Assembly: GCA_964016985.1 (NCBI GenBank)
Contig: OZ024825.1
Location: 4,892,056-4,956,055, forward strand
Length of the DNA stretch: 64,000 nt
DNA from: Anodontia alba
Taxonomy: Eukaryota > Mollusca > Bivalvia > Lucinida > Lucinidae
Direction of reading: 5' to 3'
Shown: piece by piece, positions 7,337 through 59,400 of the stretch
How positions within the stretch are numbered: the first letter of the stretch is position 1
How the letters are laid out: each line of letters opens with the position of its first letter
The notes under the pieces: generated by a model
Databases searched by the model: none
The model's input: only the letters and a program-made list of their open reading frames with translations
Told to the model about the DNA's origin: nothing
Made by a program: the position numbers and the translations under genes

Positions 7337-7439
7337 TAAAAACACACACACACACACAGAATTTCAATCTTTTTCATTACAGTTCTGAATCCTCAAATGA
7401 TGCGTCATTTTCATTTACCTATCTGAGCCCTTCATAACC

Positions 7440-8790
7440 GACTGTGACTTGATTCTAAAAGGTTTTTTAAACATTTTTGTTTGTTTGGCAAAAGCGAAAG
7501 TTGACAAAAATGCTGTTTCCGTTTTTAGCGAGACTATTTGCTCTTTGCCCGTGCAAAGAACGCTTACTGAAGGTTTTCTTTGGCAAACGTTCATAACGCA
7601 TTCTGGTAACATGGCCTGTCCATCTTAACTGTGCCAATTTCAGAAGAGTATGTACACTCTGCATCCCTGCCCTTTTGAGGACTTCTGTGTCTGGAAGCCT
7701 GTCTTTCCATTTGATCTTTAGGAGTTTTCTAAGACAGCTTGTATGGAAGTGTTTCAGTCCTTTGGCATGCCGTTGGTAAAATGTCCAAGTTTCGGATGCG
7801 TAGAATAGTGTTAGCAGAACCATCGATCTGTATACTTCCACGTAGCCGGCCAAATGCTTCCATATAGCCGGCCAAATGCTGCACTAGCTTTGATAATCCT
7901 AGCATTGACTTCATCATCAATGTGCACAACTCTAGACAATGTGTTTCCAATGAAGGTGAACTTGTCTACCACTTGCAGTCGTTGACCTTTCACTGTCACG
8001 GTGATGGTAGGCTCCTTGTAAAGCTTTCCAGGTGCTGGCTGATCTCGGACCTAATAATACCCCGTGTATATTGGGTCCAAGGGCTGATATACTACCTCAG
8101 TCTTTTTTATGCTGATTGTGAGATCATAGCTGTCACATGAATCCGATACTTGATCCACACCTTTTTGCATTTTCTCTTCTGTTGGAGCACCCTTTGCCAT
8201 GTCATCAGCAAAGAAGAACTCATCTAGCACCTCTGTCTGCACCTTGGATTTAGCTTGCAACCTTCTTGGGTTGAAAAGTTTCCCATCAAAGCGATACCTA
8301 ATAGGTATACTATTGTCACCATCCTGGAAAGCATCTGTAAGCATGGCAGAAAACATCATGCTGAACAGTGTTGAAGCTAGTACACAGCCATGCTTAACTC
8401 CATTTGTCACAGGGAATGGATCAGAAAACTCGCCATCATTTTGGACCCTTGCAAGCATACCATCATGGAATTGCCGCACCATTGCTATGAATTTGGCAGG
8501 ACAGCCAAATTTTGCCGTAATTTTCCAAAGTCACTCACGACTGACTATGTCAAATGCTTTGGTAAGGTCGACAAAGGTCATGTAGAGGTCCACATTATGT
8601 TCCTGGCATTTTTTAAGCTGTCGTGCTGTAAAGATCATGTCTATTGTTCCTCTGTCTTTCCTGAATCAACACTGGCTTTCCGGTAGAAGCCCTGACTGTT
8701 CAAGGTGTTCGTTCAATCAACTCAGTAGGACCCTAGCAAGGATATTCCCAGCAATTGACAATAAAGAGATGCCTCGACGATTTTTAACAT
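7440..8790 (-). pseudogene. Non-LTR retrotransposon reverse transcriptase, decayed
   Basis: Minus-strand RT with motifs in order: NRRGISLLSIAGNILARVLL (about 8790-8730), GTIDMIFTARQLKKCQEH, MTFVDLTKAFD (about 8580), NGVKHGCVLASTLF (about 8400), FFADDMAKGAPTEEKMQ (the FADD catalytic box, about 8200), then LYASETWTFYQRHAKGL and LAQLRWTGHVTRM downstream. Several stops and frame changes interrupt it and no endonuclease is seen, so this is a truncated dead copy. It differs clearly from the RTE-like family at 42521-45392; clade not resolved. Confidence 0.88.
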
Positions 8791-23926: not shown

Positions 23927-24050
23927 AAAGTTACCAGAATGGGGTCAATGACCTCAAAGGAAATAATATAATCTGCACTATGAAGTATGGCTAGATGTTT
24001 ACGGCTGTCACATGGCACTTAACACCAGCTGCAGAAGAGCCTCCCTCACC

Positions 24051-24319
24051 ATCACGAAAACATGCCAATATAATTTTGACCACCTTAAACCCCACTTTTA
24101 TATAGTAAAACTGAGGTTTACAGGGAATACATTATTTCTGCTCAAAAACATAGACTGTGGGTACTCGTTAGAACTGCCTCAGCAAGGCACTTCTAACGAG
24201 TACCCACAATATATATTTGAGCAGAAATATGAAAAATATCAGAATTTTTTTTTTTTATCTGAAAATTTTCAGTTTTTGGAGGTAAAATTTTCTATATATT
24301 TGAATAGGCATGTTTTCGT
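24051..24319 (-). mobile_element. Family A MITE copy, reverse
   Basis: Starts CATCACGAAAACATGCCAAT with the CCCCACTTTTATATAGTAAA arm first, core B about 24147-24220, then TGGAGGTAAAATTTTCTATA and GGCATGTTTTCG. Confidence 0.9.
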
Positions 24320-25249: not shown

Positions 25250-25538
25250 CATTACGAAAACACACCTATTCAAATACACTGAAAATTTTACCACCAAAAA
25301 CTGGCAATTTTTCAGATAAAAAATTCTGATTTTTTTCATATTTCTGCTCAAAACATAGATTGTGGGTACTCGTTAGAACCGCCTCGTCGAGGCAGTTCTA
25401 ACGAGTACCCACAATCTATGTTTTTGAGCAGAAATAAGAAAAGTAATGTATACCCCTGTAAACCCCAGTTTTACTATATAAAAGTGGGGTTTAAGGGGGT
25501 CAAAATCATATAGGTATATTTTCGTGATGCAGAAATGG
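25250..25538 (+). mobile_element. Family A MITE copy
   Basis: CATTACGAAAACACACCTAT start, core B at about 25350-25425 with GTTAGAACCGCCTCGTCGAG at the axis, TATATTTTCGTGATG end. It lies just downstream of the eIF2D stop codon. Confidence 0.92.
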
Positions 25539-25849: not shown

Positions 25850-26439
25850 TTAGCTCGTGGAAAGTGTACCAAATGCATTTAGATCTTCAGGTACAGTAAT
25901 GAGGTATCTTTTGTTGGTTTCATCTACAACGTAAATTTTTCCATCACAAGAATATGCAGATTTCAGCAGTCGGTTGCGAACATACTGCCTTGCATTATAT
26001 AGAAGCTTATTTCTATGTGCTGTAAGCACATCATTTATATAAACACCATTCCATCTGCTATTCTTATGAAGATCCTTTTTTATCATATACAGACTTTGGC
26101 GTGCTTTATGCGTAGTGAATGTGACTCTGATTTCTCTGTGGCGACCAACACAAACTTTTCCATCACGGCATGATGAGCTGATATCAGTTCGGCAAATATC
26201 AACATTTAGGTCACGGGCAAGGTCCACAACAAGCCGATCTGTGTCTTCATCTGATGTTTCTGGTATTCCTGAGATACGTAAACACTTTCTAAGACTATAC
26301 TGTAATTTATTGTCCTCCAGTGCTTCGCGCTTAGAAACTACTCTTGGTTCTATTTCTTCATCTTCTTCTTCAGAAACACTCGGTAAACGTGCAAATACGA
26401 CGCCAGATATGATGTACTTCCTTGGTATCTTGTAAACAC
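25850..26439 (-). CDS. EIF2D: eIF2D terminal exon k: SUI1 tail fused to an L1 ORF1p-like RNA-binding module
   Basis: 590-nt exon, acceptor CTCCATTGTTTCTTAG, TAA stop at 25850-25852, 195 residues after the split codon. Residues 1-9 (VYKIPRKYI) are the conserved end of eIF2D, which in vertebrates is followed by about 12 basic residues and a stop. Here the frame stays open. An acidic linker at about 22-30 (SEEEDEEIE) is followed by CLRISGIPE at about 52-60, EDTDRLVVDLARDLNVDI, REIRVTFTTH at about 101-110 and VYINDVLTAHRNKLLYNARQ at about 132-151, ending KIYVVDETNKRY. This is the layout of LINE-1 ORF1p RRM-CTD or FP25K-like proteins. Whether it retains RNA binding is inference. No stop or frameshift interrupts it, unlike the other transposon-derived ORFs here. 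Confidence 0.82.
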
Positions 26440-29400
26440 CTAAGAAACAATGGAGAAATATATCATATTGTCATAGGTCGGGTTTTGCACAATAAAATAA
26501 ATTTTTCATAAATATCTTATTTCATAAATATCATACATGTTTTCGTCTAGTCATTTCTTACAAACAGTATTCTTTTACATATGAATCATATTCATTATTA
26601 TTATTGCAGGCATTCGCCATACAGACATACTCTAATAAAGTTTATACTTTGCTATGTTGATGCTGTGTGATAGTAAATGTATTTTATATATATTTACAGA
26701 TGTACCAGTGATCATCAACAACATCATCATCATTAAAATCATCATCATCTAATTATGCCTTGTGTATTGTCTGTTGTCCAGAATAGAACCCCCATCGGGT
26801 GACAATATTGTACAACTGTACACACTGTTAAGATATTACAATTACTATCTGTGATTTATTATAAAAGATACTGCATACACATCTGCTTTTCAGTCATTTG
26901 AGCTTTTTACTACTAAAAAAAATCCTGTGTGGGTCTTAGTCCTACTTTTGCCCTTACTTACCTGCGCAGCTGCCTTTAGTAATTTGAGATTAAATGCTTT
27001 CTGAAATCTGTGTTTTTAGAATGTAAAAGGAATACACAACCTGTCCAATTTCAGGTAATTTGATTAAAGCTGGAACTTAGGGTGACAATTAGGAGTCTGT
27101 AAACTTAGTGGAACCACCGCCCTGCCTCATCACCCCTCCCCCTCTCTGAATTATTTTTTTTTAAACTGCTGACCGTTGTAAGGTAGTGATTCTGTGCCAA
27201 ATGAAACTACTAAACATACATTACATACACATTTTGTAATTTCGGCCTTGTTTGTTCTGCTCAATACATGGCAGACAACGAATATCAGAAATAAATAACT
27301 TACTAAATAACAGTATCGGGAACAGCTTTTGGGGAATATTAAAGTCTATTGTCTCGCCTAACTGTTCAACTTAAATGCAATTTATTTCCAAGTTCACACT
27401 AAATACTGAGTGTATGCTGGCATGTAAAAATATGGATAACATTTAACATCCTTAAAATTATATAAAAGAGAAATGCACAAATATAAGTGTGGTTTTATCA
27501 ATACAATGAATACATTCCGAGAAGATGGATGATGTTTTTGCAATGCATGCATGAAAGTACTGGCAGAGACAGTAATATAAAACTTATTACGAAAACGTAC
27601 TTATATAATTTTGACCCCCTTGAACCCCACTTTTATATAATAAAACTGGGGTTTACAGGGGGTATAATACGTTATTTTTCTTATTTCTGCTCAAAAACAT
27701 AGATTGTGGGTACTCATTAGAACTGCCTCAGTGAGGCAGTTCTAACGAGTACCCATAATCTATGTTTTGAGCAGAAATATGAAAAATATCAAAATTTTTA
27801 TATCTGAAAATTTTCATTTTTTGGTGGTAAAGTTTTCAGTATATTTGAATAGGCGTGTTTTCATAATGTGATGGAAAAAGTAAGCTTTACTGCGATCTAG
27901 TCAAAGCAAATACTACTCACTCAACAATAAGTCTCTAATGCAGTTAATTTGGTTTCCTTGTACAATAACTTGTGGACCATTGTCACTTTGCTGCAAGGTC
28001 ACAGTTGAACTACCAGCACACCTAACTCGAACACTATGCATGAGCTCTTCTGGATCCAAACAATAATGGTGAAAATTCTGTATAGCTGTGGTCTGAAACA
28101 ATGCAGAAACACAGGTTAACAAACCAGTGTATCTGTGTCTACCAGTGTGATTAACTGTGTCAATATGTGCGTAGATATATGTGCATAGACATTAGCAACA
28201 AGAAAAATAAAGGCACATTATGCATATACGATCAAGATCAGTCTACGTGGTCTAATGAGAATTTGCATATTTTCACACACAACCACTGAAGCTACATTAG
28301 ACGGCATAATCCTTGACTGGACTGTTTGCTTGCGCCTGCATGCTTACGAAGTGTATGTTTTCTGTGATTTATGCTATATGCATAATGGAGAAAACTACAA
28401 TAATTGGGGAGATATGTAAATAGCAGATCATCACTGTTTATCGATTCAATGCTGCTTAATTAGTGTCTGTATTGCTCACTTGTGCATACACAGCATGCCC
28501 TCTCCTAAGTAGTGACAATCAGGACTATCTAATTTGTTTTGCCTAATAAAGTTAGCGTACTGTCTTCATTTAGAGAATCTCTTAATATGTTTTAACTCTG
28601 ATTCTTTTTCTTTTATGCAGTTTTATATTTTACTTGGGATAATTAAGCTTATTGTGGAAAGCCTATTCTTGGAAAATTGCGCTGGTGCTCTGCAAACAAC
28701 AACAGTGTAATATGTAGAATCTCATTATTGCATAAAAAGCAGTGTCGCACGTTATTAACAGCCGTGCATTAACTGGTGAAAAGCCGTGTATTAACAAGGC
28801 AATTCACGCACTGTTAATGCATGGCTACGCAACATTCAATATGATCATACCGGGGCCACAGATATGCTGCCGTTACGAGATGTGTACTGCCCGGCCCTAG
28901 AATGAGCATAGTCCGTGGAAATTACGTTCGCGAGACATCTGTGAAAAGGTGAAACAAAATAATGCAAGAAATAAAGCGAAATGTAGCAAATGTTTTCAGT
29001 TTTTATGCAATAATAGCGATCGAACATGATTTTTCAATGCATTAACATTTGCCAGGTCCCTTGGGGGTGTTGAAAACAGCGGCCTTTGGTCTCGGTTTTC
29101 AACACCTCCCACGGGACCTGGCGAATGTTAATGTATGAAAAACCATGTTTGATCCCTATAATGAAACCCAAGATTCCAATTTTCATTATTTTATGTGTTC
29201 TTTGTTTCCAAGGACAACACTGATAGATTTCATTTAACAGAAGCGATTGTAAGTGATCCTATAAACAAACTAGAGGACTGTTTCAGACTGATCTGGATGA
29301 TTCTTTTAGCAAATACCATCCTAACAAGGTATCCATTTTGATGATGTGGCTAAAATATGCATAGTATTCATATCTTCATGAATGTAGCAAAGCAGAATTT

Positions 29401-32400
29401 GTAAATACGATGAACAGGTAAAAGTACTGACATACACCACAACCTCTGTATAACACTATTGTTGGGGTCCATAGCATAAACCATGTTAGTTAAACAACCG
29501 TGTTATATCCAAACAAACACACAAATGGTCATTTTTCAATATAATCTATATATTTTTGGGATCCATCTTTGAACCGTGTTATATCCAAAACTGTGTTATA
29601 ATGAACTGTGTTATACAGAGGTTGTAGTGTATATGATCTAAAATACTTATCCAAGACTAGAGATGACTAGCTAAACACTCGTACATTGAAAGGCAAAACT
29701 TAAAAATAATTAGAATACTTGGTGCTTTAAAATAACCATCTTTCAAATATTTATCAAAATCATTTACCAACCTCATTTGCAAATTCTCCCTCCACTACAT
29801 CAATTACAACAGGTTCAACATCTTTCTTCAAAATTGGTGGTTGTTCGTCAAGTCTGATTTCACAAACTGATGACATTTTGTTCAGCAATCTAAATACATA
29901 AAATATGTTTGTTTGTTTTTTCTTATTTTTATGAAAGTAAAACAAACTACATACAATAGTTTCAGAATAAGAAGCATCAGACTATCAACTATCATACCAA
30001 ATATTAATTCACATGCAGTCTGAGAAAATCTACAGAAAGAGAAATGCAAATCTTACAAGTTGCTTTCCTGTCTTCTCAAGTTTTCAATTACAGTCTATTT
30101 GTGCCTTGGGGATTTCATATGCGGTATTGGGTTTCTGATGATGTGTTCCTCATCTCTTCTTCTGTCAGTACCTTAGAAAGACTGTGCTGTAAGACTGTGG
30201 CATTTCCTGGTTATCTTAACATATGTCTTTAGTGTGAAATACATTCTTCTTGTTCCTTTGTTCATTTTATGCTCATTATTGTTTTGTCCAATTATTTAGA
30301 GTTTAGTGCTGCCGAAATTTTACAGAAATGTGCTTTTATCAAAACACTAAATTTGGAATGGTTATGTTTATATATTAACGTTCTGCAAGCTGGGTAAAAA
30401 AATCAGCCTGCGACATTTTGAACTATATTTTCTTATTTTTTTCTTCCAAAAATATTCTTTGACATTTCATGCAAATTGTCTCCTGAGAAAACAATTTGCA
30501 TGGAATGGCAAAGCGTATTTTCTGGGAAACACAAGAAAACCAATCGTCAATTTGTCATGTGCTGAATTTACCAGAGAGTGGTAATGGTTAAGGACAAAAG
30601 TACACACTGAAGATTTAACTGAAATGTGTGGAAAGGTATACTGGGCTGGGCATTTTCACATAATATTATGCCAAATACATGTTTCCTAATCCCCCCACTC
30701 CTTCCCCCCCATCCCCCCCAATAGTTTTCATATTTACCCATTCCAAGGCATTTCCACTGGTGCAGTTGTTCTTTGTTTGTACGTCTGTGTTTTTTCATAT
30801 ATGGCGTTTGTGGTGTCCTTATTCATTCCTCATCTCTCCTTCCTTTAGTGCCTCGGGAAGGTTGTGCTTCATGATTCAGGCATTTCCTGGGTTATTTTCA
30901 CTTATAGTTTTTCTAATGCATTATTATCAGAATTACCTTGAGAAAACTTCACCCAATGTCAGTGTGGCCATGGAATTTGATTTGTGATGAAGAACTTCTG
31001 TCAAAATATCGTCTAGAATGAGTTCACTGAAATATTAAAGCATTCCTTTAATGGTTGATATATTGCAAATAAAATCTATTGACGTTGCCCTAGGCAACAA
31101 AAACACAAAAAAAGGATGACAATCTGAGTCTCGATTTTACTGTGATTCTTCAAATGACAGTATTGCAAATAACTTATATGGGAACCTGCCTTTTTTTCAG
31201 CAAGCGGAATGCTGTGTGGCAGCAGTAGAATGTTTCTTCGTATTTCATTGTAGTGTTGCTTATAATAGTCATTGAGGTCATTTGGATTTATTTTAGAACA
31301 AAAAAATCTCTTCCCCATAGACCAAGAAGAAAAACATTAAGTGATACAGATTTGAGTTGTGTCTGGTGCTAATAACAAGAGGCCCATGGGCCATGATTCG
31401 CTCAGCTGAGTAAAAGAGCCATTGCATAGCTACAGATGCCATGCAACATTCTTCCAGCATTGCCACAGCAACTAGGACAGAAATTTAACCATGCTGTAAA
31501 AAGGTCATAAGTTATCTAGGATCATCATTTGAACAAACTTGGTAGGCCTTGTGTCACTCTTGCAAAATACCAAGATTTAGGCTTAAAGCTTTCTTGTTCT
31601 AGAAAAGATTTTGAAGTGATTTTTTTTACTATATATGGGCATGGCGACAATTTTGTTCTGTAGTGCAGAACAATTTGAACAAACTGATAATACCCTTTCA
31701 ACAGAAGGCCCCATGTGAAATCTGTTGACAATTGGTCTAGCGGTTTCAGAGAAGAAGACATTTGAAATTACACAATTTTATACACGTATATAGCCCAAGG
31801 GCATGGGCAGATATACCCAAGGGGATAAAATTTTGATTGTAACAAAAACATTTTACTATTTTAATCATACATTGTAAATTTCAACAATAAATCTTTAAAA
31901 CATTTTGAGAAAATGATTTTTCATTATTTTGTATAGGGACGTAAATTTGACTTTGCTATAAAAAGATCAAATGTCAACCCAAGGTCATCATTTCAATAAA
32001 CTTGGTAAACCTTGAGTACCCGATACTGTATACGAAGATTTAACCTTAAAGCTTGCTTGGCTCTGGGTAGAAGCTTCCTAAGTGTTTTTCACCATATATG
32101 GGCATGGCGGCCATCTTGTTCTATGGTATGGAACCATTTGAATAAATTGTCAATATCTGTTCGACAGAAAGCCCCACGTGAAATCTGGTGAAAATTGGTC
32201 AAGGGATTTCACAGAAAGGATGTTTAAAAGTTTACATGATTTTATACATATATATAGTACAGGTCAAGAGTGTATAACTCACGGAGACAGATTTTGACTG
32301 TAACTAAAAAGTTTTATGACTTTAATCATACATTGTAAATTTCAGTCATTAGTCTTTAACCCTTGTCCTGCTGAATAAATTAAGAAGCCACACCCACTTG

Positions 32401-35400
32401 TAATTTTCAGCCAATCAGATTACTTGATCCAGATAGTTGCTATAAATTTTCATACTTGCTGGCAAACAGTGCAGATCCAGATCAGTGGCTTCTTCAGAAG
32501 CCAACTGATCTGGATCTACACTGTTTGCAAAATAGGGTATATCCGGGTTCAGCAGGACAAGGGTTAATACATTTTTAGAAAATGATTTTTCAACATTTTT
32601 TCCAATCAAAAGTATGGGTACGCAAATCTGACCTTGCCCTAAAAAGGTCAAAGGTCATCCAAGGATCATCATTTGAACAAACTCTGTAGATATGTGCCAA
32701 GATTCAGTCTCATAGCTTCCTTGGTTCTGGAGTAGAAGATTTTTAAGTGTGTTTTTTTTTTACCATATATGGGCATGGCAGCCATGTTGCTCAATGGTGC
32801 AAAACCATTTGAACAAACTGATGAAACCCTTTCAACAGAAGGCCCCATGTAAAATCTGGTGAAAATTGATCGAGCTGTTTCCGTGAAGATGGCATTTAAA
32901 TATTACACAATTTTATACATGTATGTAGCCCAGAAGCAAGGGCAGATTACATAAGGGGACAAAATTTTGATTGTAACTAAAAGGGTTTGCTACTTTGATC
33001 ATACATTGTAAGTTTCAATCATTAGTGTGTCATACATTTTTGGAAAATGATTTTTCAAGATTTTCCTCATACAAATACATACGGATGGTAAATCTGACCT
33101 TGTCGTAAAAAGGTCAAATGTCAACATAGGTTCATCATTTGCACAGACTATGCAGACCTTGAATCCTTGATGCTATATACTAAGGTTTAGCCTCAAAGCG
33201 TTCTTGGTTCTGGAGAAGAAAATTTAAAGTTTTTTTTTTTTTACTATATATGGGCATGGCAGCCATCTTATTAAATGGACCGTGACCATCATATCATATC
33301 ATAATCAGATTTATTAAATGGACTGTGACCATCATATCATATCATAATCGGATTTTTGATTTACACGCAGGTACAGGGGCAACATCCACATCAGTGGGCC
33401 CCCTTCCAGATAGCTGGTTTGCTGCATGCATGGCAGATTTCACACCAGATCTCCATATATTTCTATCATGAGGGTCGATAGCCGAGAGTGCTCTTTGCAA
33501 TCCCTCTCTATCAGCTGCTTCCATGTCATCTTAGTCCTCCGAGGCCCACCCTTTCCATCAACCTGTATGTCAAAGGCTGTCTTTACTGCACCATTGGAGC
33601 TTTCCACATGTCCATACCAGCGGTTCCTTCTCTCCTTCAGAGTGAGGTCCAGTTCCTCAATGCCAAGCCACGCAAGTAGTTCATTGGGCCTGGTGGTGAC
33701 AACGTCTTGTGGCCTGACATTGCAGATCTGTCTGATCATTGCCCTGTCATTCCACTGCAGACGCTGGAGGTTTGGTTTTGTCAATGGCCAAGTCTCACTG
33801 GCATGGAGCATTGCCCTCCCCACACAAGAGCTGTACACTCGGCCACATGTTTTGAAAGAGAGGTGGCGTGAAGACAGAACTGGTAGCAGCTCCTTGAACT
33901 TCTTCCCATTTGTATAAATTTTCAATTTCCCTTTGACAGAAGGCTCCAAAAGAATTTTGAAGAAAATTCGCCCAGGAGTTTCAGAGGCAAATTCATTCAA
34001 AGGTTTGAACGGACAATCGCAGACGACAAACAACTGACGGGGAGTATCACAATAGTCATCCTGAGCCTTTGACTCCCTTGAGCTAAATATCAAATATTTT
34101 CAAAATCCATTTACAATCAGACTGTAAAAGCAATGACAAATTTATCAGTTGCAATTTATCATTCTGCCTTGGTCATAATTTTTTCCAGAGTATTCAACAA
34201 GCAACCCCTTCCATTTTCTACATCAATTATATGAAAGCCAACAAATTAGCCTGGTGCTTTGCCTTTTTATAGGCCTGGTAAATTGTCTGTTTTATGCTGG
34301 TATTTTTGCCTTTTGTATGCCTGGTATTTTGTAAGGTATACGGGGCAATAACTACCCAGGGAATCATTTTGATTGTAACTGAAAGGTTTGTACAGTCAAT
34401 AAAAGTAAAAAAGGATTGCCTTTGGAAACAAAGAACACACAAAATCACGAAAATTAGAGACTCGGTTTGACTGAGTCTCTTCATATGCAACACAGCAGTT
34501 TGTGAGGCTGCATACGCCCCCTTGCATCAGCTAAACAAGGTATTGGATTTTCAAAATAACCAGGGCCCAGTTGTTCAAAGCTAACGACGTCGTTAGTTAA
34601 CGATTCGTTAAAATTTACATCGAGTGATATGCAAATATGCTGAAATTTTTTGCTGAAAAAATGTGAGTAGCTTTTGCAGTGCAAAAGCTACTCACATTTT
34701 TTCAGCAAAAAATATCTGAATATTGTATATTGAATCCGCTAAAACAGTTAACGAAATGACCCTTAACGAGCTCGTTAAGCTAACGACCCTTTGAACAACT
34801 GGGCCCAGGATGGGCTCAATGATCCCAAAAGAAATAAAATATAACCTGCACTATGATGATGTACGCAGAGACCTAGTTCACTCTTTGGTTGCAGGCCCGT
34901 GGGTCAGGCCTCTGACTCTATGACGGCTCTGGTCTAAAGACTTTTAAGTAAGTCGGTTGGTACCTGATGCTCTGGTTCTGGTCAGGCCCACCGGTCCATC
35001 TGTTGGTTTTCTTTAGCTTCAGCATTTCATTTATTTCTTGCTGTCGACTCATCATTGTTTCATTTCTGTATTCGTGTGATTCTTATGTTTTCAGAGATAT
35101 TGCACTGATGAGTTAGAAATCTTTCACGTGGACTGAATACGTCTTCTGTATACCACGGCAGAACTAAAGGTGAGGATTGTCGCCATGTAAAATCAATTTA
35201 AGCCACCCAGTAAGTTTTTACTGAATATTCCAAGGCTGTGCTTCTGTTGTGGTTTATTATTTCTGTCATTGTATGTCTTTGCATATATGTCCTGGTGAAA
35301 TTTTTATTTTGGATAGCTGTTTGGCCATTTTTTTTTTTTTTGGAAAAAAAACTGTCCTTTTGGCTTTCTGCTTTTAGTATTTTGATTGTGGTGCCATTGC

Positions 35401-38400: not shown

Positions 38401-41400
38401 TGGTTGTTCGATTAATTGTTTTCCTCATTTCCGCAAATCTGATATGTCGAAGTACGGATATCTCGAAGTATTTCACAGAGCCCCTTGGAGTTCGAGATAA
38501 CGAGAGTCGACTGTACTTGCAAATCTTTCTTCATTTTGCAGAAATGGTTAGATGTTTGGGAAAAAAAAAAAACGCTACAAGTTACCGTTCAGAATCCTCA
38601 CACTGCAGATTATTGGCTTTGATGTAATCTACTACCATTCTTCTTACATCAGCTCCCTTTAAAAGATCTCCTTTACTGAAAAAAAAGATTCAAAAGAATG
38701 AAAGTCCTCAGAGAAGAAATATAAGAATAGAATATTAGAAACACAACAATGGGCATACAGTCCTGTCGTTCCAAACATGAAATAACAAGTTGGTATTCAG
38801 ACATGTTTACATTCACAAGCAGTTTGAGTCATAGCTTGGACACAATATACACTGGACTAGTAACTACGGTACAGGTATTGTATTTATTGGAAATATGTTG
38901 TCGTGGCTGAGTTTTCATAATTTTGTATGGTGAAGTTTAAATGCTTATATTTCATTTATTTCTCCAAATATCTGAGATTTGTTTTCAAAAAGCAATAGTT
39001 CAATATATTACCTTTAATACTGCAGCATTATATTTAAGGAAAATCAAACAATTTTTGTAAACATCAGCAAGAAACCTAGGTACCCATTTTTGCTATTTTC
39101 GGCACTTTTTGCAGAAAATCATCAGAAATTCAACAAAAATGATGGTATAACTTCAATTTTATTAATTGTGACTTAACACTTTTCAACCAAATCTATTACA
39201 ATCAATTTATTACAACTTCAGTAATTATCCAAAACGATTTTTAATGACCATTGTGCTGTTAAATAGCACTAAAATCAAGCCACGACAACATATTTTGGCA
39301 TTTCCATTAGTGACAAGTCCGGGTATTATTAGGTCCGAGGTCATAGGTATGCTGTTTATTATACAGATGCTGTCATAACAACATGCTTCTAATGTATATT
39401 TCCTTTCCAATGGATCGTCACAGCAAATGGAAAATAAAGGCACTAAAATGCAACGTCATAAATTATATGATTAACCAATCAACTACATTATTTCAAAATC
39501 ATAAACCGTTTTCATAACTCTTAAATGCTTTCAATTTAAACCAATGAAATGTTTGTTTCAAAGCAATGTGAGAAGACAATTTCTTTTTTAGAAATACAGG
39601 TAACTAAATGCGAAATTAATACATTTGATTTGTCTATTCTTGTGGGATAATGAAACCAATGTAATTCATTTGACACCACACCTCCACTTGAAATAGTAAA
39701 GAAGATGTCTAGGAAGATAAGAATCACAATCACAGGACACAGCTTACCAATGTCACCAAGAGGAAGTGTAAACAAAGTACAACCGACAGCACACACTTAA
39801 CCCTTGTCCTGCTGAAAAAATTAAGAAGCCACACCCATTTCTAATTTTCAGCCAATCAGATTACTTGCTCAAGGTAGCTGATATAGATTCACATACTTAA
39901 TGGCAGACAGTGCGGATCCAGATCAGTTGGCTTCTTTGGAAGCCAACTGATCTGGATCTACACTGTTTGCAAAGGCAAGGTATATCAGGATTCAGCAGGA
40001 CAAGGATTAACAAACCAATGAAATGCAAAGCAACCAGATGCTTCTTCTCAAATGAGGTGATCACAATGCCAGACATCAGCACTAGCATCAGAACAGGAAA
40101 ACATGACACATAGAAACTACACAGAAGGCAAAGTGGAACATGGACAATATATATTTTCACTACTGAACATTTTATATTTAACCCTTGTCATGCTGATTAA
40201 GTTTAGAGGCCACACCCACTTCTAATTTTCAGCCAATCAGATTACTTGACCCAGGTTATTGGTACAAATTCGCATACCTAATGACAAACAGTGCAGATGC
40301 AGATCAGTTGGCTTCTAAGAAGCCAACTGATCTGGATCTACACTGTTTGCAAAGACAGGACATAGCTGGGTTCAGCAGAACAAGGGTTAAGAAAATTAAG
40401 CTTACCTGTAGCCAAGGATTTTAAACAATGGCATCACATCATCAGTTACTTCAAATGCCTCCGTTATTACAGGACGTTTAAACCTCTGACCACTGGATGA
40501 CTTTGAGTCTTTCACTGCCACTGGTACTATGAAGTTTCGAAGACTGAATAATTCAAACAATGTATTAACATTTAGTATTCTGAATTTGTTTTTGCTTCAC
40601 AAATGCTAATTAACATTTAAAATGGAGTTTTTAAAAAGTTTTCTGAAAACAAAGTATTACACTTTGTTCAGTTGATTGGGTGATCTGTATGAAACATAAA
40701 GCCATTTATTGTACTTTTCATCTACTGACTTTATCATTAGCAATATTGTTCCCCAAAGTTTGTGGAAAAAAATTTATTAAATTGCATTCATCTGTTGTTG
40801 CTTTTTCGTCCATCTGCAAATTGCATTCCTCTATAAACATAACATTGTGGGATCTTTAAGCGATGATAACTGATAGAAATGTGGTTTGTGTCAAGTAGGC
40901 ATGTCACAAAAAGAAATGACAACACTAGTTTTCCTTTGTTATTATCTCCTCTCCTATTCATTAGCCCTTAAACATTTTGCTCTCTATAACTCATGGATAT
41001 ATTCTGACAACATTCTGTGGAAATAATATTTGGTAGAAACATGGATTCCTTCACCACATAGGTGACACACCTATAAAAGAGAAGACAACAATCACTTCCT
41101 TATTTTTGGATTATCGTCCTTCCTAGTATTTGATCAATAAGCTTTGTAAGTTCTATCAAGTCTTATGCCCTGTATATATTTAATGACAGCTGGTAGAAAT
41201 ATGGACTAAGTTATGTAGCTGTGTCATATAAACAAAAGACCATTCTTGCTTCTTGATATTTTATCACCCCCTTCAAATATTGGGTCAATAAACATTGTGA
41301 GCTCTATGTTTGATAGTGCTTGTTAGATACTTAGGCTGAGTAAAGCAGATCTATCGCATATATTTTCAGAGTATACCCTCTTCTAGTATGTCATTGCAAA

Positions 41401-44400
41401 TTGTTGTGCCTCTACAACTCCTATGCCTCTGGATATATTTTGATGCAACTTGATAGAAATCTTGGAAGGGCTGAGTTGTATCATATACAGGAATGATAAC
41501 TCTTGTTTCCTTACATGTCAGGATTTCCTCTTTTAATATTAGATCATATACATATGGAGATACCCAGGGAAGGCCACAACAATCGCCAAACACATTCCCC
41601 AACAAGGAAACAAATAAGATTAGAATGATACGAAAAGACATACATAGAACATTATCATTTGAGATAACAGTAAGTTTGAAATAAAAGGAGTTGAAATATA
41701 AGGAACGTATAGAAAACTAAAACAATAATTCCATTTCTTTAGTTTGACTTAAGCAGTAGTTTGAGTTATCAGTATCTGAGAAAATGAAAGTCAACTGTAA
41801 TTGTCAACTGTAATTGAGTTATGGCACTTTACCTGTCTGCCCACATCAATCAGTATTGTATAAGTATCCATACAGGCTGGGGTCCCAAACTGCTAGTTCA
41901 TCCAAATATCATTTTGGTAATACGCAGTGTATTAAAGTAACTTTGCAGCGTTATTCTATCAATGGTATGAACTCTCATCACGTGATACATTTTTACTTGT
42001 GACATATCCTAATATATTTAATCTAGGCAAATTTGGTGAAACACCTTTGAAATGTTTAAAGATCAGGTTTTTATTCTGATCATGGATTTTGCATTAAGTG
42101 CTATAATTCTTGAAACATTGCACCACAAGATTCGTTTTATTTGTTTACTTATTATTATTTTATTATTACTATTGATATTTCAGTATTATGTGTATTTTGT
42201 TTTATGTGTATTTCAATTACATTCGCCCTAATCAGTATTGAAGGAATCAGCCCATGCTATTCGATTTAGGTTGGGTCACAGACTGAATGTCAAGAACCAT
42301 TCTTATGATATTGGGCCATGTAGCAGTGATTCCCCCTTATATTGACACAGCATCAAAGGCCAAAATTCTGGAAATTCTGCATAGATTGGGAAACATTATA
42401 GTTACATAGCAAAATATCTAATATAAATTACTACAAAATATAATATCATACTCTGTCCAACATTGGCACTGTCATGCTTTTGTTATGGGACACTATTTTG
42501 CATAGAGCAAAATAACTATTTGTAATCATCATCATATCATAATCGGATTTTTGATTAACGTGCAGGGACAGGGGCAACATCCACATCAGTGAGCCCCCTT
42601 CCAGATAGCTGGCTTGCTGCATGCATGGCAGATCTCACACCAGATCTCCAAGTATGTCTATCATGAGGGTTGATAGCCGAGAGCTTCCACTCTCTGCAAT
42701 CCATCTCTATCAGCTGCTTCTATGTCATCTTGGGCCTCCAGGCCCACGTTTTCCCTCAACCTGTATGTGAAAGGCTGTCTTTACTGCACCACTGGAGCAT
42801 TCCACATGTCCATACCAGCGGAGCCTTCTCTCCTTCAGAATGAGATCCAGATCCTCAATGCCAAGCCGCACAAGTAGCTCATTGGACCTGGTGGTGACAA
42901 TGTCTTGCAGCCTGATATTGCAGATCTGTCTGATCATTGCCCTATCATTTCGCTGCAGACGCTGGAGGTTTGGCTTTGTACATGGCCAAGTCTCACTGGC
43001 GTGGAGCATTGCGCTCCACTGGAGCACTGCGCTACACACAAGAGCTGTACACACGGCCACATGTCTTGAAAGAGAGGTGGCGTGAAGACAGAACTGGTAG
43101 CAGATCCTTGAACTTCTTCCAGGTTGTTTTCACACATGTTGTGGTTGAAAGTTCACAGCCACCTGCTGCTGAGAGCATGTCTCCTAGGTAGCAAAAGGAA
43201 GCTACCACCTCCTGCTTGTCAGGTCTGGCCTGGACTTCCTTCTGTGGTCTGCTGTCCAAAGGGCATGCAGTTCCCTAGCACCGTGTACATCTGTAGTCAG
43301 GCTCCTTTGTCAAGCGCTTGAGCCCACTGCATTTCTTGTGCACCCAGTGCTTGCAGCCATTGCAGAAGATGCTAGATGCTCCAGTGCAACAGACAGTGCA
43401 TGGAATCTCTCCTGAACTCTGCAGGAGGTTCAGGCCCATACCGCAGATCATGATCTTCATCTTTCCTGCATTTACTCTCAGTCCTTTCTTCTCCATTTTT
43501 TCTTTCCAAGTCAAGAGCCTCCTGACACATTCCTCGAGTGATTCAGTGATGATAAGAAGGTCATCTGCATAGAGGTCCTCCCAGGGGACCCCAGAGCGGA
43601 ACTCGCATGATAAGGCTTCAACCACAATGATGAAGAGCAGTGGGCTGAGTACTAAGCCTTGGTGAACACCGACCTTCACTTCAAATTCTTCACTGTACCC
43701 CTCACCAACATGGACACGGCTCAGCGCATTTGCATACATCCCCTGCACCAGTGGCATAATCCACTCCTCCACACCAAGTTTTCTCAGCGCCCACCAGATG
43801 ACCTTCTGAGGTACTCGATCAAACGCCTTCTCCAGGTCTACGAAAGCCATGTAAAGTTTCTTGTTGAAAGCTAGATACTTCTCTTGCAGCTGCCTGACAA
43901 CAAAGATTGCATCCGTTGTGCCTCTGCCTGGGACAAAGCCAAACTGGGAATCGTCGATTGACACCATCTGTCTAATGGGGCCATCCACAATCCTCTCCAG
44001 GACTTTCATGACCTGCTCTGTCATCTTGAGACCAGTCAAACTCAACTTTGAGAAGCCTTTGGTAGTGCTCTAACCAGGCCTTCTGCTTTGAGTCTTTGCT
44101 CATTGACATCTCTCCTGCATCATTCTTCACTGTTTGTCACCAACAACATCAGCATTCTCTCTTCTAAACTGGTTAGCAAGGCAGTAGATTTCTGAAGACT
44201 TTGGGTCAATATTCTCATAGACCTTGTCGGCTTCTTGACAAGCATGGTGCACTGCATGTCTGGCATTTTGTTTGGCTGCATCGTATGATGCCCTAGTGCC
44301 TTTACCAGTTTTCCAGGCCTTGAAAACTTTCCGCTTGGCAGCAATGGCCTTTTCCGCATGTTCATTCCACCACCAGGTTTCATGACGCCACGTGTGGCCG

Positions 44401-47400: not shown

Positions 47401-50400
47401 GTGCTGAGAAGCTGCCTCAAGATTTAAAATCAATTCATAATTGTTCAAAAATATTCAAAGCACTTGTATAAATGCCCGGTAAATTTTACATTTCACTTAT
47501 TTACTCAAAATTATCCAAGTAGTTTATCAAAATTAAGTACCCTATCGAAAAAGCATTTAACCTCAGCAACACAATGGTGATTTGCCTGCTACTATAAATA
47601 TTTTCAGCTGGCCTATTACATAATCTTGTATTGCAAATATGGCTTTCATGCTTAGAATGTCATATTTGTGACTTTCACATATTGCCACAAAAACTAGAGA
47701 CCAAAAACTGATACAGAAGCTTTTTGAAGCTATAATTGTGCGTTTTCAATTAAAATTATTTCCCCTGTGCAGTAATGCTACTGACTCAGACCTGGCAACT
47801 GGGCAAAATATGTGGAGATAATTTCTGACCTTATACTCTTGAGAAATACCAGTAAGTATCCACAATGTATGCTTCAGTGCAACAAAATTGTTGAAATAAC
47901 CACGATCGTCATCTTATCTGAAAATCTGTCTGGTACTTACTCTTCATGAGATTTATCGATTTCTACAATGGTATCGACTCCTTTTGACTGTTTTATTTTT
48001 ATAATACCAGTTTTCTCTTGTTTCTGTAGGAACTTGGAAAGCTGAAAAAAAACATGGAAAATATGTGGTGGATTTGATTTTTTATTGTAACTGTAATATG
48101 ATATGGTCTTGTTTTCTTGAACATATACTGCTGGTAAAAGCAGGGCTGAGAATAGTCACTAATAATCAATCCTGAAATCTAAAAATTTAGTCCAAAAAAC
48201 GACTCATAGTTTTCTTAATTCTCAATAAAAAACATATGTTGTGGGTACTCATTAGAAATGCCTCAGGGAGGCATTTCTAATGAGTACCCACAACATATGT
48301 TTTTATTGAGAAATAAGAAAACTATTTTGTGGATACGCCCTCTTATCTGGAGCTATACAACTAATAATTAGCTTAATAATTAGTATTTAAAGTTTTTTTC
48401 AGGCATATATCAACCCAAATAACTACTTTTGACATTAAAAGGATGGTCTTGTGAACAAGTGTAAAAGTGATATTTCATGCTTAAAATGGAAGTTTTCAAT
48501 CCTGAAATCAGGATTAATCCTGAAGTTTCCCATCCCTGCAAAAGATAAAGCATATAAAACTGTGCCAACTTGTTATGTCAGAATGCTCGTCAAAATTATT
48601 ACAGTCGACTCTCATTATCTCGAACTCCAAGGGACTCTATGAAACAGTTCGAGATATCCGTACTTCGACATATCAGATTTGCGGACTCAGGAAAACAATT
48701 AATCGAACAACCACCTTTAACAGAATGAATATGTAGTCTGACTCCTAAGTTAGAGACATTTTGAAAATATTGTGGAAAAGAGGAGAAATTGCTCCTAAGG
48801 AGCAATTTCTCCTCTTTTCCACAATATTTTATTGCCTGTTGGTAGATCTCTGTATTAAAACAGGGACCAGATTTTCACTTCGAGATAAGCGGTTATTCGA
48901 GATAAGCGAGTTCGAGATAACGGGAGTCGACTGTACTTAATTACTAGAATACAGAAAAAAAAAAAAAAAACATAAAAGAAGATACCCAGGAAATGCCGCA
49001 ATCATGTGGTGCAGTGGTAAAGCATCGGACTAGAGATCGAGAGGTACCGGGTTCGATCCCCACTAACAGCAAGTGTTGTTTCCTTGAGCAAGAGACTTTA
49101 TCCACATTGCTTAGTACTGGTTTCTACCCAGGAAAAAAGAGGGCCACATGGAAGATTAGTACCAAATTACTAAATGTGTTACCCTCTATAAATAAAGTCG
49201 ATTATTATTACTATTATTATTATTATGAAGCACAGCCCTCTGTTCGCATCACAGGACGGAGAGATAAGGAACAAATAAGGACACCAACAAATGCCACACA
49301 TGAAATTAGACAACAAAGAAGAACAGTTACTGCATCAGAGGAACTGCCTTGTCATTATGAAAACACGCCTATTCAAATATATAGAACATTTCACCTGCAA
49401 AAACTGAAAATTTCAGATAAACTCTATTTTTCATATCTGCTCAAAACATAGATTGTGGGTACTCATTAGAACTGCCTCATCAAGGTGCAAAAAATAACTG
49501 CCTCATCAAGGTACAAAAAATAACCAATCTGACAAAAAGTGAATCAGCAAGGCATGAATATCACTTTATGAGGTTGCCTTATAATACACCCTAAAATGAG
49601 TATATTCATTTTACCTTGTCTTGTAATGTAAAATATTTGCTTTAGTAGGCTAGGTTCTGTGATTGTGGCAATTCCTGGACATCTTGACTATTTTTTCACT
49701 TCAGAGGATTAAACCCATTATATCCTGTGGTCACTCAAAAGGGTTGAGATGATAATTTAGAGTTTCAACTCTTTATATGATTAGTCTCTTTCAACTCTTT
49801 TATATGATTTAGAGATGATCAAGGGGGTGGCACGAAAGGCTCTGTGCAATAAAAAGCCACAGAACTCCAGCAGGACTTGAACCCAGAATTCCTGATCTGA
49901 AGTCAGAAGCACTAACCACTTGGCCACCCAGTTGTCATGTATTTACCTTTCTTCTCAATAATAACATTATTAGATTTAGTACCACATTATATAGGCAAAT
50001 CTTATGTATTCCAATGGAAGCTAATTATGCACCTAATAAAGCCTCCAAGGGTTCACTGTTGAATGCTCCAAAGTGATATGCCTGTTGCAATTCCTCTTCA
50101 TTTGTTCACTTTTCGTTCATTGAAATACTGTTTTGTAATGTCATTTTAAGTAATTCAACCTTTATATTAGCTTTCTTGGAAAGGCTGTGTTCTGTCGTTT
50201 TATTTTCAGTTTAGACAAAGGAAAAAACACACTGGACCAAAGCGAGTCTGCAATTTCCTACTATTCTATCCCTAGTAGTCTTTACTATAGTCGAACCTCA
50301 ATAGCTCGAACACCGATGGCTCGTTTACCGTGGCTAATTCAATCTCGTTTTTGAGACCCTACGAAATTCTTCCGATACCTTAAGAAAATAAATATTTAGG

Positions 50401-53400: not shown

Positions 53401-56400
53401 CCTGATCTCCTTACTGTCAATACATACAGGAAGTTTGGTTAAAATCCCTTGTTATTTACTAAAGTTATCATCCGGAAACGAAAATATGGGCTTATCTCGG
53501 GCAGACACCTCTTTAAACATTTTACGAAATTTGCCCATTAGCAATCGCAAATCAGATCTCCTTAATGTCAATACATATAGCAAGTTTGATGAAAATCCCT
53601 TGTTATTTACTGAAGTTATCATCCGGAAACGAAAATATGGCCGTGTCTCGGGCAGGTAACTCCGTAAAAATTTGACGAAATTTGCCCATTAGCAATCCCA
53701 AACCAGATCTCCTTAATGTCAATGCATATAGTAAGTTTGGTGAAAATCCCTTGTTATTTACTCAAGTTATAGTCAGGAAACGAAAATATGGGCGTGTCTC
53801 GGGCAGATAACACCATCAAAAATTGACGAAATTTGCCTATTAGCAATCCCAAATCAGATCTCCACAATATCAATGCACATATCAAGTTTGGTGAAAATCC
53901 ATTGATGTTTACTCAAGTTATCATCCAGAAACGAAAAACGGATGGATGGACGGACGGACGACTGACAGACGGACAGACAGACGGACTCACCGACGACCAA
54001 CGTGAAACCATAATACCCCACCACTATTGTATGGCGGGTATAAAAAGTAAATTCTAGTAATCAGCCTAGACCTTGATCATATGTTCAATGAAGGTCAACA
54101 CTCTTTGCTAATGACCTACCCATGAACCTGCAGTATCATGAAAACATCCCATATGAATTAGCCCAACTCTCAATATAAAAAATTGTATTAGGCATAAATG
54201 GTTCATCATAGAAAAATATAATACTATATATATACAGTTGACTCTCATTATCTCGACCTCACTTCTCGAATAACCGCTTATCTCGAAGTGAAAATCTGGT
54301 CCCTGCCTAAAGATGAAAATCTAACAACAGGTAACAAAATTTTGTGGAAAAGATTGATTGTGTTGGGGTTTAACGACACGTCAACCCTTGAGGGTCATTT
54401 TGTGTCGTCTCCCAGAGAAAGGGAGAAAAGAGATAGAAGAGAGAGTAGAGGAGATGAAAGAGAGGGACAGGGAAGAAAGAGGAACAGGAATGAAAGTGAA
54501 GAAACAGAAGAAATAAAAACATTCCCCCTCTACCCTTACCCACTACAAGGATAGCAGGCCTTGCCCAACTGTAAGCCAATATCAGTTGGACGCCCCAGTG
54601 ATGTAAGATACACAGCACCTTCGCACCACCCGACCACTCCCCAGGAGAAATTGCTCCAAAGGAGCAATTTCTCCTCTTTTCCACAATATTTTCAATATAT
54701 CTCGAATTTCAAGAGTCCAATTATATATACACTTGTCAAATGTGGTTGTTCGATTTATTTTCTCCTTAATTCTGCAATTCTGATATGTCAAGGTATGGAT
54801 ATCTCGAAGTATTTCCCTTGAAATTCGAGATAACGAGTGTCGACTGTAGTACTGAATAAGCATACTGTAAGCAGAATTTAGAAATGCTAAAAAAACAATG
54901 ATGGGTGTTAAATAAAGCCAACAACACAAGCAAACAAATTAAATACAAGCAAACAGAACATGCCAAATATAAATATAATACAAGATGCACTAGCAAGCAA
55001 AGTATAATAAATACAACCAAGCATATCTTCTATAAACTGATTTTTTAAGATCGGGCAGCAGTTACATATAAATATAGTTGTTTATTGCGTTTTAAAATCT
55101 TGAAACCAACCAGTTACTTTTGAGTTCTGAATTAACTTGCATGGTGTTTTAGAACCTTCAAAGTAAAATCATTGAATTCTGGGATCTCCCTTCCCATAAA
55201 TTAATCTCAGTCTAAGCTCTGAATGTAAAATCAAACAGTAAAAAGGTTTCCATTTTGTCAAACATGGTACGTTTAAGTCCTTTATTAGTTTCTAAGCAAA
55301 GTCAGTGGACATCAAGTGTTGACATTTTAATTTTCTTCTAAAAATAGGATTTCGTAAAACATATTTTCCTTCAAAAACAGTCCATTTGAACGCAAACCCG
55401 TGTTTTCTGGGAAATAGAAGACATATACTGGAAATGCCATCTGCAACTATTTAACACCAGCAGAAAAATGGTTACGAGTTTACTGTCAGAAAATGCTATA
55501 ACTGCCTATTATTGCATAAAAAGCAGTGTCGCAAGTTATTAACAGCCTTGCATTAACCGGCAAAAAGCCGTGAACTAACAAGGCAATTCACGCACTGTTA
55601 ATGCATGGCTACGCAACATTCAATATGTCTTTACCGGGGCCACAGAATTGCTGCCGTCACAAGATGTGTACTGCCCGGCCCTACAACGAGCATAGTCCAT
55701 GGAAATTACGTTCACAAGACATCGGTGAAATAGCAAAACAAAATAGTGCAAGAAATAACGTGAAATGTAGCAAATGTTTTTAGTTTGTATGCAATAATAG
55801 CGATCGAACATGGTTTTTCAATGCATTAACATTCGCCAGGTCCCTTGGGACCATGTTTGATCCCTATATTGTAGTAGCGGCTTCTTTTTCAAAAATAAAT
55901 ATGAAGACACCAAGGAAAGACTAATCTAGTGTGCATGCATATGCTTACTTTTTTAAAACTCGAGCTTTTAACTGATAGTTGTTGACCAGGTCTGCTGAAA
56001 AGTTATAAGACAACACAACAATCAGAATGAATTCTTTTAGGAAGCATTTTTAGTATTGCATGACAGGATGAATTTCTTTGAGAAAAAGCATGCGATTTAA
56101 AGGAAAAATAAAACAAAGTTAAGAAAAAGCTATTGATGCTGGTAGATATCTGAAGAAAAAAATACTCTATCTTTATCAGACCATTCAACTGGCTAGTACA
56201 GTGAACCCTCATTACAACGACATCATTTGTTCCTAAAGAAGTTGGCATTAAAATGAATTTACTGTTGTACAGAATACTTCATGAGCAGATTGATATGTAA
56301 GAACGGTCTTGTTTTGTTCTTATTTTGTCATAGAACATATGTTTTGGATATTTGTTAAAACTGCCTCAGTGAATTCTAACAAATATCCAAAACATATGTT

Positions 56401-59400
56401 TCTTTAAAGTATTAAATACAATATTCTTGCATAATTTGTGACTTATTGTTACCTCTTAAGCGAAGATTTGTGACAGTCAAATTGTTATTATAATGAATTT
56501 TGTCGTTGTATTGAGTGTCGGTATAAAGATGATTGTCTGTATATTTGTCATAAAACTAAAACATATAAGTGGAGGTACCCAGGAAACACTATTAAACTAC
56601 CATTCAATTCTGAACCCCCCCACCTGCGCCCCCCACCCTCTCTCTCTCTCTTTCTCTCTCTCTCTATCTTTCATGCAAAAAATACTATTAACCATCGATC
56701 GAATGCCTTAAAACAAAAAGAGGACCATGGTGGTCCTTACCTACAACGTTCATTAATCTGGAGGACATAACTCTTAACATATTCATTACTATATCAAAAT
56801 TTGGTGTACTTTAACCTCAAAACAATATGCGCTATATCACCTCAGGGGTGCTGTATCACCTCAGGGCTAACTGTCCACCAAGTTTCAACCCCATCTTATA
56901 TGTAAGGTTCAGGAAGATCTGATCAAAACTGAAGGAGTTGTATGGATGACAAGATCAAACAAGCATTTTAAGCAATCAAGTGGACGTAACTCTAAAATAA
57001 ATAAGTTGATCTGGACAGTTTTTAAATTTGTCCAAGACTTCAGCCATGTCTGCAAGATGCAGGATGATCCAATCAAAACTGAATGAGTTATGCTGACGAT
57101 AAAAGCAAATATAGGCCTTTTAACAATCAACCGGGCAGGACTCTAAGATAAATGGTCTGATCTGGCCAGGTTTTGAACTCATCCGAGATTCCATCCATGT
57201 CCATCCTATCTGCAAGCATCAGGAAGAGCCAATCAAAACTGAATGAGTTATGCTCATGCCAAAGTCAAACAGCGGCTTTTTCAGCAATCAAGTGGACGTA
57301 ACTCTAAGATTAATGATTCCATCTGGCCAGGTTTTCAGCTCAACTGAGTTTTCATCCATGCAACTTTCAGGAAAATCCAATCAAAACTAATGAGTTATGC
57401 TGATGACAAAGTCAAACAGAGTTGTTTTGTTCTTTTGTGTTGAGGTTTTACGGCCAAGTCAATCCAATGGGGTCATGTCGAGCACGGTCAGTTTACCTAA
57501 ACACACGTTTACTGGACAGGCTTAGTCCTCTAAGAGGTTAACCAGTATTGTGCACATTTTTTCGCCAGAAACTGATAACTGCCCTTCTTGAATCAGGGGA
57601 AGGGAGTTTGTCTTGGCAATCAAAGATGTGTAACTCAAGTTTAATGGGCGATCTGGTCAGTTTTCTATTTTGTCCCAGATTTCATCCATTTCCATCTTAT
57701 CTGCAAGTTTCAGAAAGTTCCAATCAAAACTGAATGATTTCTGCTGATGACAAAGTCAAACAAAGGCTTTTCAGCAAACAAGGGGAATTAACTCTTAAGA
57801 TAAATGACCCAATCTGGGCAGGTTTAGAATTCATCTGAGAATTCAACCATGTCCGCCTTATCTGCAAGTTTCAGGAAGATCCAATCAAAACTGAACAAGT
57901 TATGCTGATAACAAAGTCAAACAGAGGCTTTTTCAGCATCAAGGGGATGTAATTCTATGATTAATCATCCAATCTGGCCAGTTTTCGAACTCATCCAAGA
58001 TTTCATCTCTGTCCACCTTATCTGCAAGTTTCAGGGAGATCTGATCAAAACTGAATGAGTTATACTGATGACAGTCAAACAGAGGCTTTTTTCAGCAATC
58101 AAGGGGAAGTAACTCTAAGATTAATGATCTAATCTGGCCAGTTTTCTAACTTGTCAGAGATTACATCTATGTCCACCTCATCTGCAAGTTTCAGGAAGAT
58201 CAAGTCAAAAATGGATGAGTTACACTGATGACAAAGTCAAACAGAGGCTTTTTTCAGCAACAAGGGGACGTTACAAAGATCTAGCCAGTTTTTTAACTTG
58301 TCTGAGATTTCATCCATGTCCACCTTATCTGCAAATTTCAGGAACGTCGGAGTAAAACTGAAAGAGTTATGGTGATGACAAGCATTTTCCCATTGTAAGT
58401 CTGTGGGACATTGTGGCTGCCATCGCAACCAAGGTTTTCATTGGCTTTCCACGAAAAGCTTACGTCATCGATGCCCCACCATAGGCATGCTATAGATGAG
58501 AAATGATTATCAGCCTTCAGACCTCAGAGATATAACTGGTCAAAGATGTTGACGGACGATAGATGAACTGATGGACTGATGATGGATGGACTACTATCCT
58601 GTAGCCTTTGGCCCAGGTGAGATAAAAAATGCAGCCTACCCGACCTTCTCTCTGTCTCTGTGACAGTATTACAAAATAAACCTTCTTTATAAATCTTACC
58701 AATATTTCATCATATGAGCTTTGTAGAATGTACTCGTCAACAGAGGCAGATCATTCTTCTTTACAGACTTTTTGATGGCACATCGGAAACAAAACTCCAA
58801 CAATGCATCTGTTCCATCTATCAAATAAAACAGGATATAGCTGCAGTATCTTGACAAGCTTTAAATTTAAACAATATTGTGGCATATCTTCAATACCTGT
58901 GGAAATTAACATGTAGCAGTACATCAATATTGCTTCTAGGATTTTGAGCAAGACCGATTTCACCCAGACCAATCTTTCACATTCACTTACATTTTAGATT
59001 ATAAATCAAGTGTTGCAAACAACCTGAAATAAATGTTATCTGATCTAACAAGAGATCTGATTCTTCAAATGTCTATTTTACAGAAAAAATTAAAAATCAA
59101 TATCATAACAAGAAACATTGCATCATTTAAAGTACTGAATTGGTTAAAAGCATTACCTGCTGTAACTGTTGTAGTTTCAGATGCTGATGGTAAGCCTTCG
59201 GTGTTAGGTTGATGAAACTGATCCAAGGTCCCCAACTGGTCGCCGTGATAATGTGACTGATCTGATGACCATTCCTGACTGTCCCCCCGAGTGCCATTGT
59301 CCTCAAATTCCATGCCTGCAGCATGCTGGAAAGTACTATGATATATGTAAAAAAACACAATGCAATGATTCCTAAATACCTGAATTATTGCAAGAAAGTA

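Follow-up and report, generated by a model that had tools for sequence, protein, structure and literature searches.

The window analyzed here, a 64,000-nucleotide stretch of the Anodontia alba genome (C5:4892056-4956055), carries the 3' part of a predicted gene that joins a translation factor to a piece of a retrotransposon. By gene prediction, the locus holds two tandem eIF2D genes: copy A, in which 186 codons derived from a LINE ORF1 stand in place of the short canonical tail that follows PRK[HY]I, and, immediately downstream, the canonical copy B, in which that tail is present. Since a canonical copy sits next door, the fusion does not affect the only eIF2D of the cell, and a fusion located in a sole eIF2D gene was rejected. 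The preliminary description of this DNA had proposed a translation factor with an extra module; the in-frame fusion holds up, but its host part is a diverged tandem paralog instead of the canonical eIF2D.

Gene structure of the two eIF2D copies

The genome searched comprises 1.86 Gb in 317 contigs; the human eIF2D query agrees with PDB chain 5oa3_0 where the two align. With flanks of 60 kb added on each side of the window, copy A was modeled on the minus strand between window coordinates 89874 and 25850: its 16 exons (788 codons, 2367 nt) contain neither stops nor frameshifts, and the introns are GT-AG. The features are as follows.

7419..7474, minus strand: exon 1 of the canonical tandem copy B; the remainder of the gene lies left of the window
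25850..26439, minus strand: last exon of copy A (exon k, e13), 590 nt, with the ancestral acceptor, 9 tail codons, the extension and the stop
25853..26410, minus strand: LINE ORF1-derived extension, 186 codons, from genome ORF1 matches
25853..26308, minus strand: RRM+CTD-like part of the extension, 152 codons, pI 9.5, from the ORF1 alignment and a low-confidence structure model
26309..26410, minus strand: acidic linker of the extension, 34 codons, pI 4.2, from composition
27921..28092, minus strand: exon j (e12) of copy A, 172 nt, SUI1 with GNQI, basic loop lost
29772..29889, minus strand: exon e11b of copy A, weak donor GAG/GTTGGT with a rival donor 4 nt on
30937..31026, minus strand: exon e11a of copy A, gene model
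38586..38675, minus strand: exon e10b of copy A, SWIB region, gene model
40406..40543, minus strand: exon e10a of copy A, gene model
47941..48041, minus strand: exon e9 of copy A, winged helix, gene model
55949..55994, minus strand: exon e8 of copy A, gene model
58700..58817, minus strand: exon e7 of copy A, winged helix, gene model
59157..59325, minus strand: exon e6b of copy A, linker, counterpart in B not located, gene model
62516..62702, minus strand: exon e6a of copy A, gene model
Right of the window, up to coordinate 89874, minus strand: exons e5-e1 of copy A (five), in the flank

The predicted protein keeps the eIF2D domain order, with Pfam matches over the cut-off to Pre-PUA (4.1e-24), WH_eIF2D (5.6e-31) and SUI1 (7.6e-11); exon j alone matches SUI1 at E 1.2e-11 when positions 27913-28095 of the window are searched. 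SWIB, at E 4.1e-5 and 23.7 bits, falls just under the cut-off of 25, and PUA gives no separate match at E 0.1. Human eIF2D (5oa3_0) aligns to copy A over residues 1-605 in two stretches (E 4e-95) that cover the PUA and SWIB regions.

Two intronic stretches of copy A (42555-45394 and 33440-34099, minus strand) hold fragments of reverse transcriptase and endonuclease frames, another LINE by appearance, and at about 60100-61900 the gene contains repeating translated units of the QVSTLRRSTMQGLVVVGLIVEEI type that suggest a minisatellite.

Copy B spans window coordinates 7474 down to -35478; its last exon, at -35411 to -35478, ends in the canonical eIF2D tail SGYKIPRKYIKGLEKAPKSKKR. A genome search with the SUI1 exon and tail of B returned three matches among four candidates: the SUI1 exons of B and A, and the tail of B.

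The junction

Exon j joins exon k by an in-phase splice (donor A/GTGAGT, acceptor TTCTTAG/GTG, phase 1), as the preliminary description had it, and its account of an eIF2D-tail start followed by a long open frame is borne out: exon k reads (S)VYKIPRKYI / ISGVVF..., with nine tail codons at 26437-26411, 186 extension codons and a stop at 25852-25850. The human chain stops about a dozen residues past PRKHI, in agreement with the earlier statement that vertebrate eIF2D ends soon after the equivalent site. Where human eIF2D has the tail GLEKALKPGK and copy B GLEKAPKSKKR, copy A has 186 LINE-derived residues, and the SNKK of its SUI1 domain has become FANE. Against the last exon of B, the first 30 nt of exon k are identical at 25/30 positions and the next 30 nt at 10/30, which places the junction right after PRKYI.

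Since the acceptor and the first nine codons are ancestral, exonization through a new acceptor was rejected; an ancestral acceptor with a break after PRKYI points to insertion or end-joining within the last coding exon, no new splice site being required. The idea that a LINE ORF1 replaced the original stop fits what is found: an ORF1-derived segment lies in frame within the last coding exon, whose end and stop have been exchanged. The canonical eIF2D tail was not found between 7500 and 27900; a candidate second tail near 13150-13207 was rejected, its in-frame stops marking it as a chance match.

Two copies of a hairpin-type repeat (ACATAGATTGTGGGTACTCGTTAGAAC...) flank exon k in opposite orientation (25306-25529 and 27586-27819); similar repeats are common nearby (24050-24319, 50725-50999, 63567-63839), so this flanking may be chance.

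Parts and fold of the extension

The extension consists of the acidic linker and the basic RRM-CTD part, 152 residues whose pI of 9.5 compares with 9.2-10.3 measured in ten relatives. It includes the peptide WNGVYINDVLTAHR, and the ORF1 motifs named in the preliminary description are present in it. By alignment, the heptad-like stretch that precedes the RRM in its relatives, the putative coiled coil, is absent.

A single-sequence structure model of the extension has a mean pLDDT of 51, and its order of strands and helices suits an RRM plus CTD. With this poor model Foldseek gives zero matches at E 0.001; 2yko, human L1 ORF1p, comes third at E 8e-3, behind aspartokinases. Exon k yields nothing informative against PHROGs or PDB sequences, and its Pfam matches to Baculo_FP (0.056) and Baculo_FP_2nd (0.066) are both below the cut-off. 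The profile search that had been proposed with L1 ORF1p and FP25K models thus leaves the extension below every cut-off. These models also miss the LINE family itself: the intact family ORF1s L043 and L048 match none of the Pfam ORF1/FP25K models at E 0.1, and the PF02994 profile is silent over the whole genome, controls included.

The donor LINE family

Searched against the same genome, exon k gives 150 scored matches of 432 candidates, its own locus included, so its resemblance to ORF1 does not arise by chance. The best other ORF1 matches at E 5.0e-34 with 47% identity, and the RRM+CTD part is about 35-50% identical to 19 representative genomic ORF1s; among the scored genome matches no close donor copy, above about 50% identity, was found. 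Neither a LINE ORF2 nor a further ORF1 match was found adjoining exon k: the extension stands as one locus from which the remainder of the element is missing. Both findings led to rejection of a recent insertion from an element still similar in sequence.

In intact relatives ORF1 is roughly 300-400 aa long; it opens with low-complexity sequence, followed by a heptad-like stretch and then by conserved motifs in the order QYSRRN..LRISGIPE..DIDRSHRVG..RDIIVKF..INEDLT..SDGKIFV. Of eight elements read with extended flanks, six (L043, L045, L046, L048, L049 and L050) carry, downstream of ORF1, a GD.xxNPGP motif of 2A type and an endonuclease/RT frame; L047 has a fragment 3.3 kb past ORF1, and L044 has no ORF2 within the 4 kb read. 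The gap between ORF1 and ORF2 is unusual, 2.3-3.1 kb in L043, L045, L048, L049 and L050, which have no masked stretches there. In two ORF2s, Pfam detects Exo_endo_phos (2.3e-13 and 1.5e-13) and RVT_1, the latter at 4.5e-18 in one and, in an incomplete ORF2, at 1.9e-6, just under the threshold.

As read from these genomic copies, the donor is a multicopy APE-endonuclease LINE family with a 2A-like motif at the ORF2 start, and we infer that it is probably CR1/L2-like, not L1. The type II ORF1 layout is reported from the L1, CR1 and L2 clades (PMC4120745). Of the L1 ORF1p-like RRM plus CTD described earlier, the domain order is retained on the strength of ORF1 homology, and an L1 origin is improbable.

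Probable selection on the extension

The intact frame had been taken as a hint of selection. Openness itself is uninformative: by manual count, 130/150 family matches have no internal stop over the matched stretch, so that an open frame alone is weak evidence and was rejected as proof. What does suggest selection is codon composition together with residue loss.

A rather unlikely alternative is that copy A is functional and its ORF1 piece a tolerated C-terminal extension that does nothing by itself, still open because the capture is recent relative to decay. The general openness of the family suits such a neutral extension, as does the alteration of two conserved motifs of nucleic-acid type, QYSRRN to QYSLRK and DRSHRVG to SSSCRDG. 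Yet there is no close genomic copy, the best being about 50% identical, and no LINE remnants were found beside the extension. Its amino acid sequence has also diverged without a stop. From 39 aligned LINE ORF1 copies, 19 representatives were taken that cover at least 125 columns, have no stop and share less than 75% mutual identity. Of the 18 columns invariant among them, the extension keeps 12 and has lost six; left out one at a time, each representative matches 18 of the 18-21 columns that do not vary in the remaining ones. Twelve broken copies, taken from 20 stop-bearing matches, keep 15-18 of the 18, and 9/12 have one to three stops in the compared columns, a count biased by their having been picked for stops. 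The extension is therefore more diverged than decayed copies, yet stop-free.

Composition also speaks against neutral drift, since the drift is confined to third codon positions. Relative to 38 of the 39 aligned copies (those with at least 100 codons), GC1 and GC2 of the extension sit at the LINE average (z -0.3 and -0.2); its GC3 of 0.276 against 0.428 (z -3.1) is below all 38. Fourfold-site GC is 0.24-0.25 (0.239) in the extension, 0.265 in the eIF2D part of copy A and 0.271 in one LINE representative.

How improbable a neutral open frame would be depends on the loss rate assumed. The invariant-residue loss amounts to one third, with a confidence interval of 13-59% when the six losses are taken as post-capture. 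On that footing a neutral 186-codon frame stays stop-free with P about 0.04; if it must escape frameshifts as well, P falls to about 6e-4 or less under assumed indel rates. At the lower bound of residue loss the corresponding values are about 0.2-0.4 and 0.01-0.13, so that an open frame under neutrality would be no great surprise there. The branch codon model (16/19 representatives, with L055, L060 and L061 left out; 145 codons) says little, because synonymous sites are saturated: omega fixed at 1 on the extension branch against a free ratio gives p 0.056, a value that leaves room for neutrality, and one against two ratios p 0.39. Low GC3 with GC1 and GC2 at the family level, combined with residue loss without stops, suggests that the extension has long been retained under selection. 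Part of this signal could be older: the residue losses and low GC3 may predate capture, in an unsampled LINE lineage.

Divergence and splicing of copy A

Copies A and B are 61% identical over 473 aligned codons (e6a and e6b excluded, the latter not located in B), with dS 1.50, dN 0.245 and omega 0.16 (bootstrap 0.10-0.23; 996/1000 replicates usable). With human as outgroup, 68 changes in 467 columns fall on A alone and 26 on B alone (p 1.5e-5). From these comparisons, copy A is an old tandem paralog that evolves faster than B, yet its eIF2D part is under purifying selection. Where B and human have RASNKKVT as the basic SUI1 loop, A has EFANETT. The counterpart of this loop in archaeal aIF1 contributes residues that bind the small subunit, and the loop is noted to vary in eIF2D and DENR (PMC6237735). 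Its loss may weaken a P-site role of copy A.

Faster evolution and the lost loop would also be expected of a dying gene, one whose role is gone, whose transcript is mis-spliced at weak donors and whose extension was never translated in quantity. The splice sites lend themselves to this improbable reading: scored with a hand-written donor weight matrix, donors average 3.1 in copy A and 4.9 in copy B, and the e11b donor scores 1.0 against 1.1 for a competitor 4 nt on that would truncate the protein at residue 555. A dying gene, however, would hardly preserve 2367 nt free of stops and frameshifts at dS 1.5 and omega 0.16, nor C-terminal exons as constrained as the rest: dN between A and B is 0.23 in the last 110 aligned codons and 0.24 in the first 300. 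Constraint beside the extension equal to that at the N-terminus argues that translation normally reaches exon k.

As an observation on e11b itself, its two near-equal donors lie at 29766-29772; use of the second would shift the frame, and splicing could toggle the SUI1 domain together with the LINE tail. Downstream, a further weak point of copy A is that a single ATTAAA/AATAAA signal occurs within 770 nt past its stop, beginning 4 nt after it.

That most messages of copy A end in intron 12, at the LLLSE stop past the exon j donor, with the fused isoform a minor one, is likewise improbable: read-through of that donor does meet a stop two codons on, and the e12 donor scores 1.3 in A against 3.5 in B, but B conserves the acceptor and the nine opening codons of exon k (25/30 nt), and no canonical tail was found at 7500-27900.

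Proposed origin and function

We lean slightly toward the explanation that the extension is a domesticated RNA-binding LINE tail on a specialized eIF2D paralog, copy A, which has lost the basic SUI1 loop. As reconstructed from sequence, an old tandem duplication produced two eIF2D genes, and copy B has stayed ordinary in both sequence and tail. In A, a 3' segment of a LINE ORF1, comprising RRM and CTD and lacking the coiled coil and ORF2, was joined on after PRKYI in the last coding exon; the ancestral acceptor would still serve, with predicted translation running 186 codons on to the new stop. Copy A has been under purifying selection in its eIF2D part while evolving faster than B, and the extension is probably kept open by selection too.

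The resulting eIF2D-A would keep the pre-PUA, winged-helix and SWIB regions and, after the change of SNKK to FANE, perform poorly in the 40S P site. Its basic RRM-CTD tail may act as an RNA-binding arm, as type II ORF1 modules bind RNA; in the absence of a coiled coil it would not form ORF1-type trimers. While copy B does the ordinary job, eIF2D-A may serve as an RNA adaptor linked to translation, or may compete with LINE ribonucleoproteins, instead of acting as a standard factor of initiation or recycling. Bolder, and offered only tentatively, is the proposal that eIF2D-A has traded its SUI1 loop and native tail for a LINE RNA-binding module and become a new translation-linked RNA-binding protein, possibly intercepting LINE messages at the ribosome, and that it is fixed and conserved in related clams.

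Relation to known systems and significance

Host-transposase fusion genes join host domains in frame to a transposon-encoded domain, and usually gain a DNA-transposon domain by a new splice. Here, by contrast, the captured segment is a LINE ORF1, the ancestral acceptor is kept and the break lies inside an exon. Host-transposon gene fusion is thus already known as a kind; an eIF2D-LINE ORF1 pairing did not turn up in the literature searched, including the titles and abstract openings of the papers listed on LINE and bivalve fusion genes.

Copy A shares the Pre-PUA, WH_eIF2D and SUI1 domains with eIF2D (human 5oa3_0; C-terminal structures 5w2f and 5oa9). Its extension is homologous in RRM and CTD to the type II LINE ORF1p that PMC4120745 describes for the L1, CR1 and L2 clades, but differs in lacking a coiled coil and ORF2, in occupying one locus and in having six representative-invariant residues changed. 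The closest parallel in fate is L1TD1, a domesticated mammalian L1 ORF1 gene and likewise a host-kept LINE ORF1 without ORF2, described in 2014 as the one domesticated gene then known to stem almost wholly from L1 (PMC4161310). Nearly all of L1TD1 is ORF1-derived, whereas here the ORF1 segment forms the end of a duplicated translation factor and comes from a LINE that is probably CR1/L2-like.

The ORF1 proteins of LINEs bind RNA and are abundant, and the eIF2D-A fusion would illustrate the taming of such an RNA-binding domain. The canonical copy B beside the fusion provides a built-in control, and a graft of the ORF1 RRM-CTD onto eIF2D would make host coupling of LINE RNA recognition to the ribosome testable.
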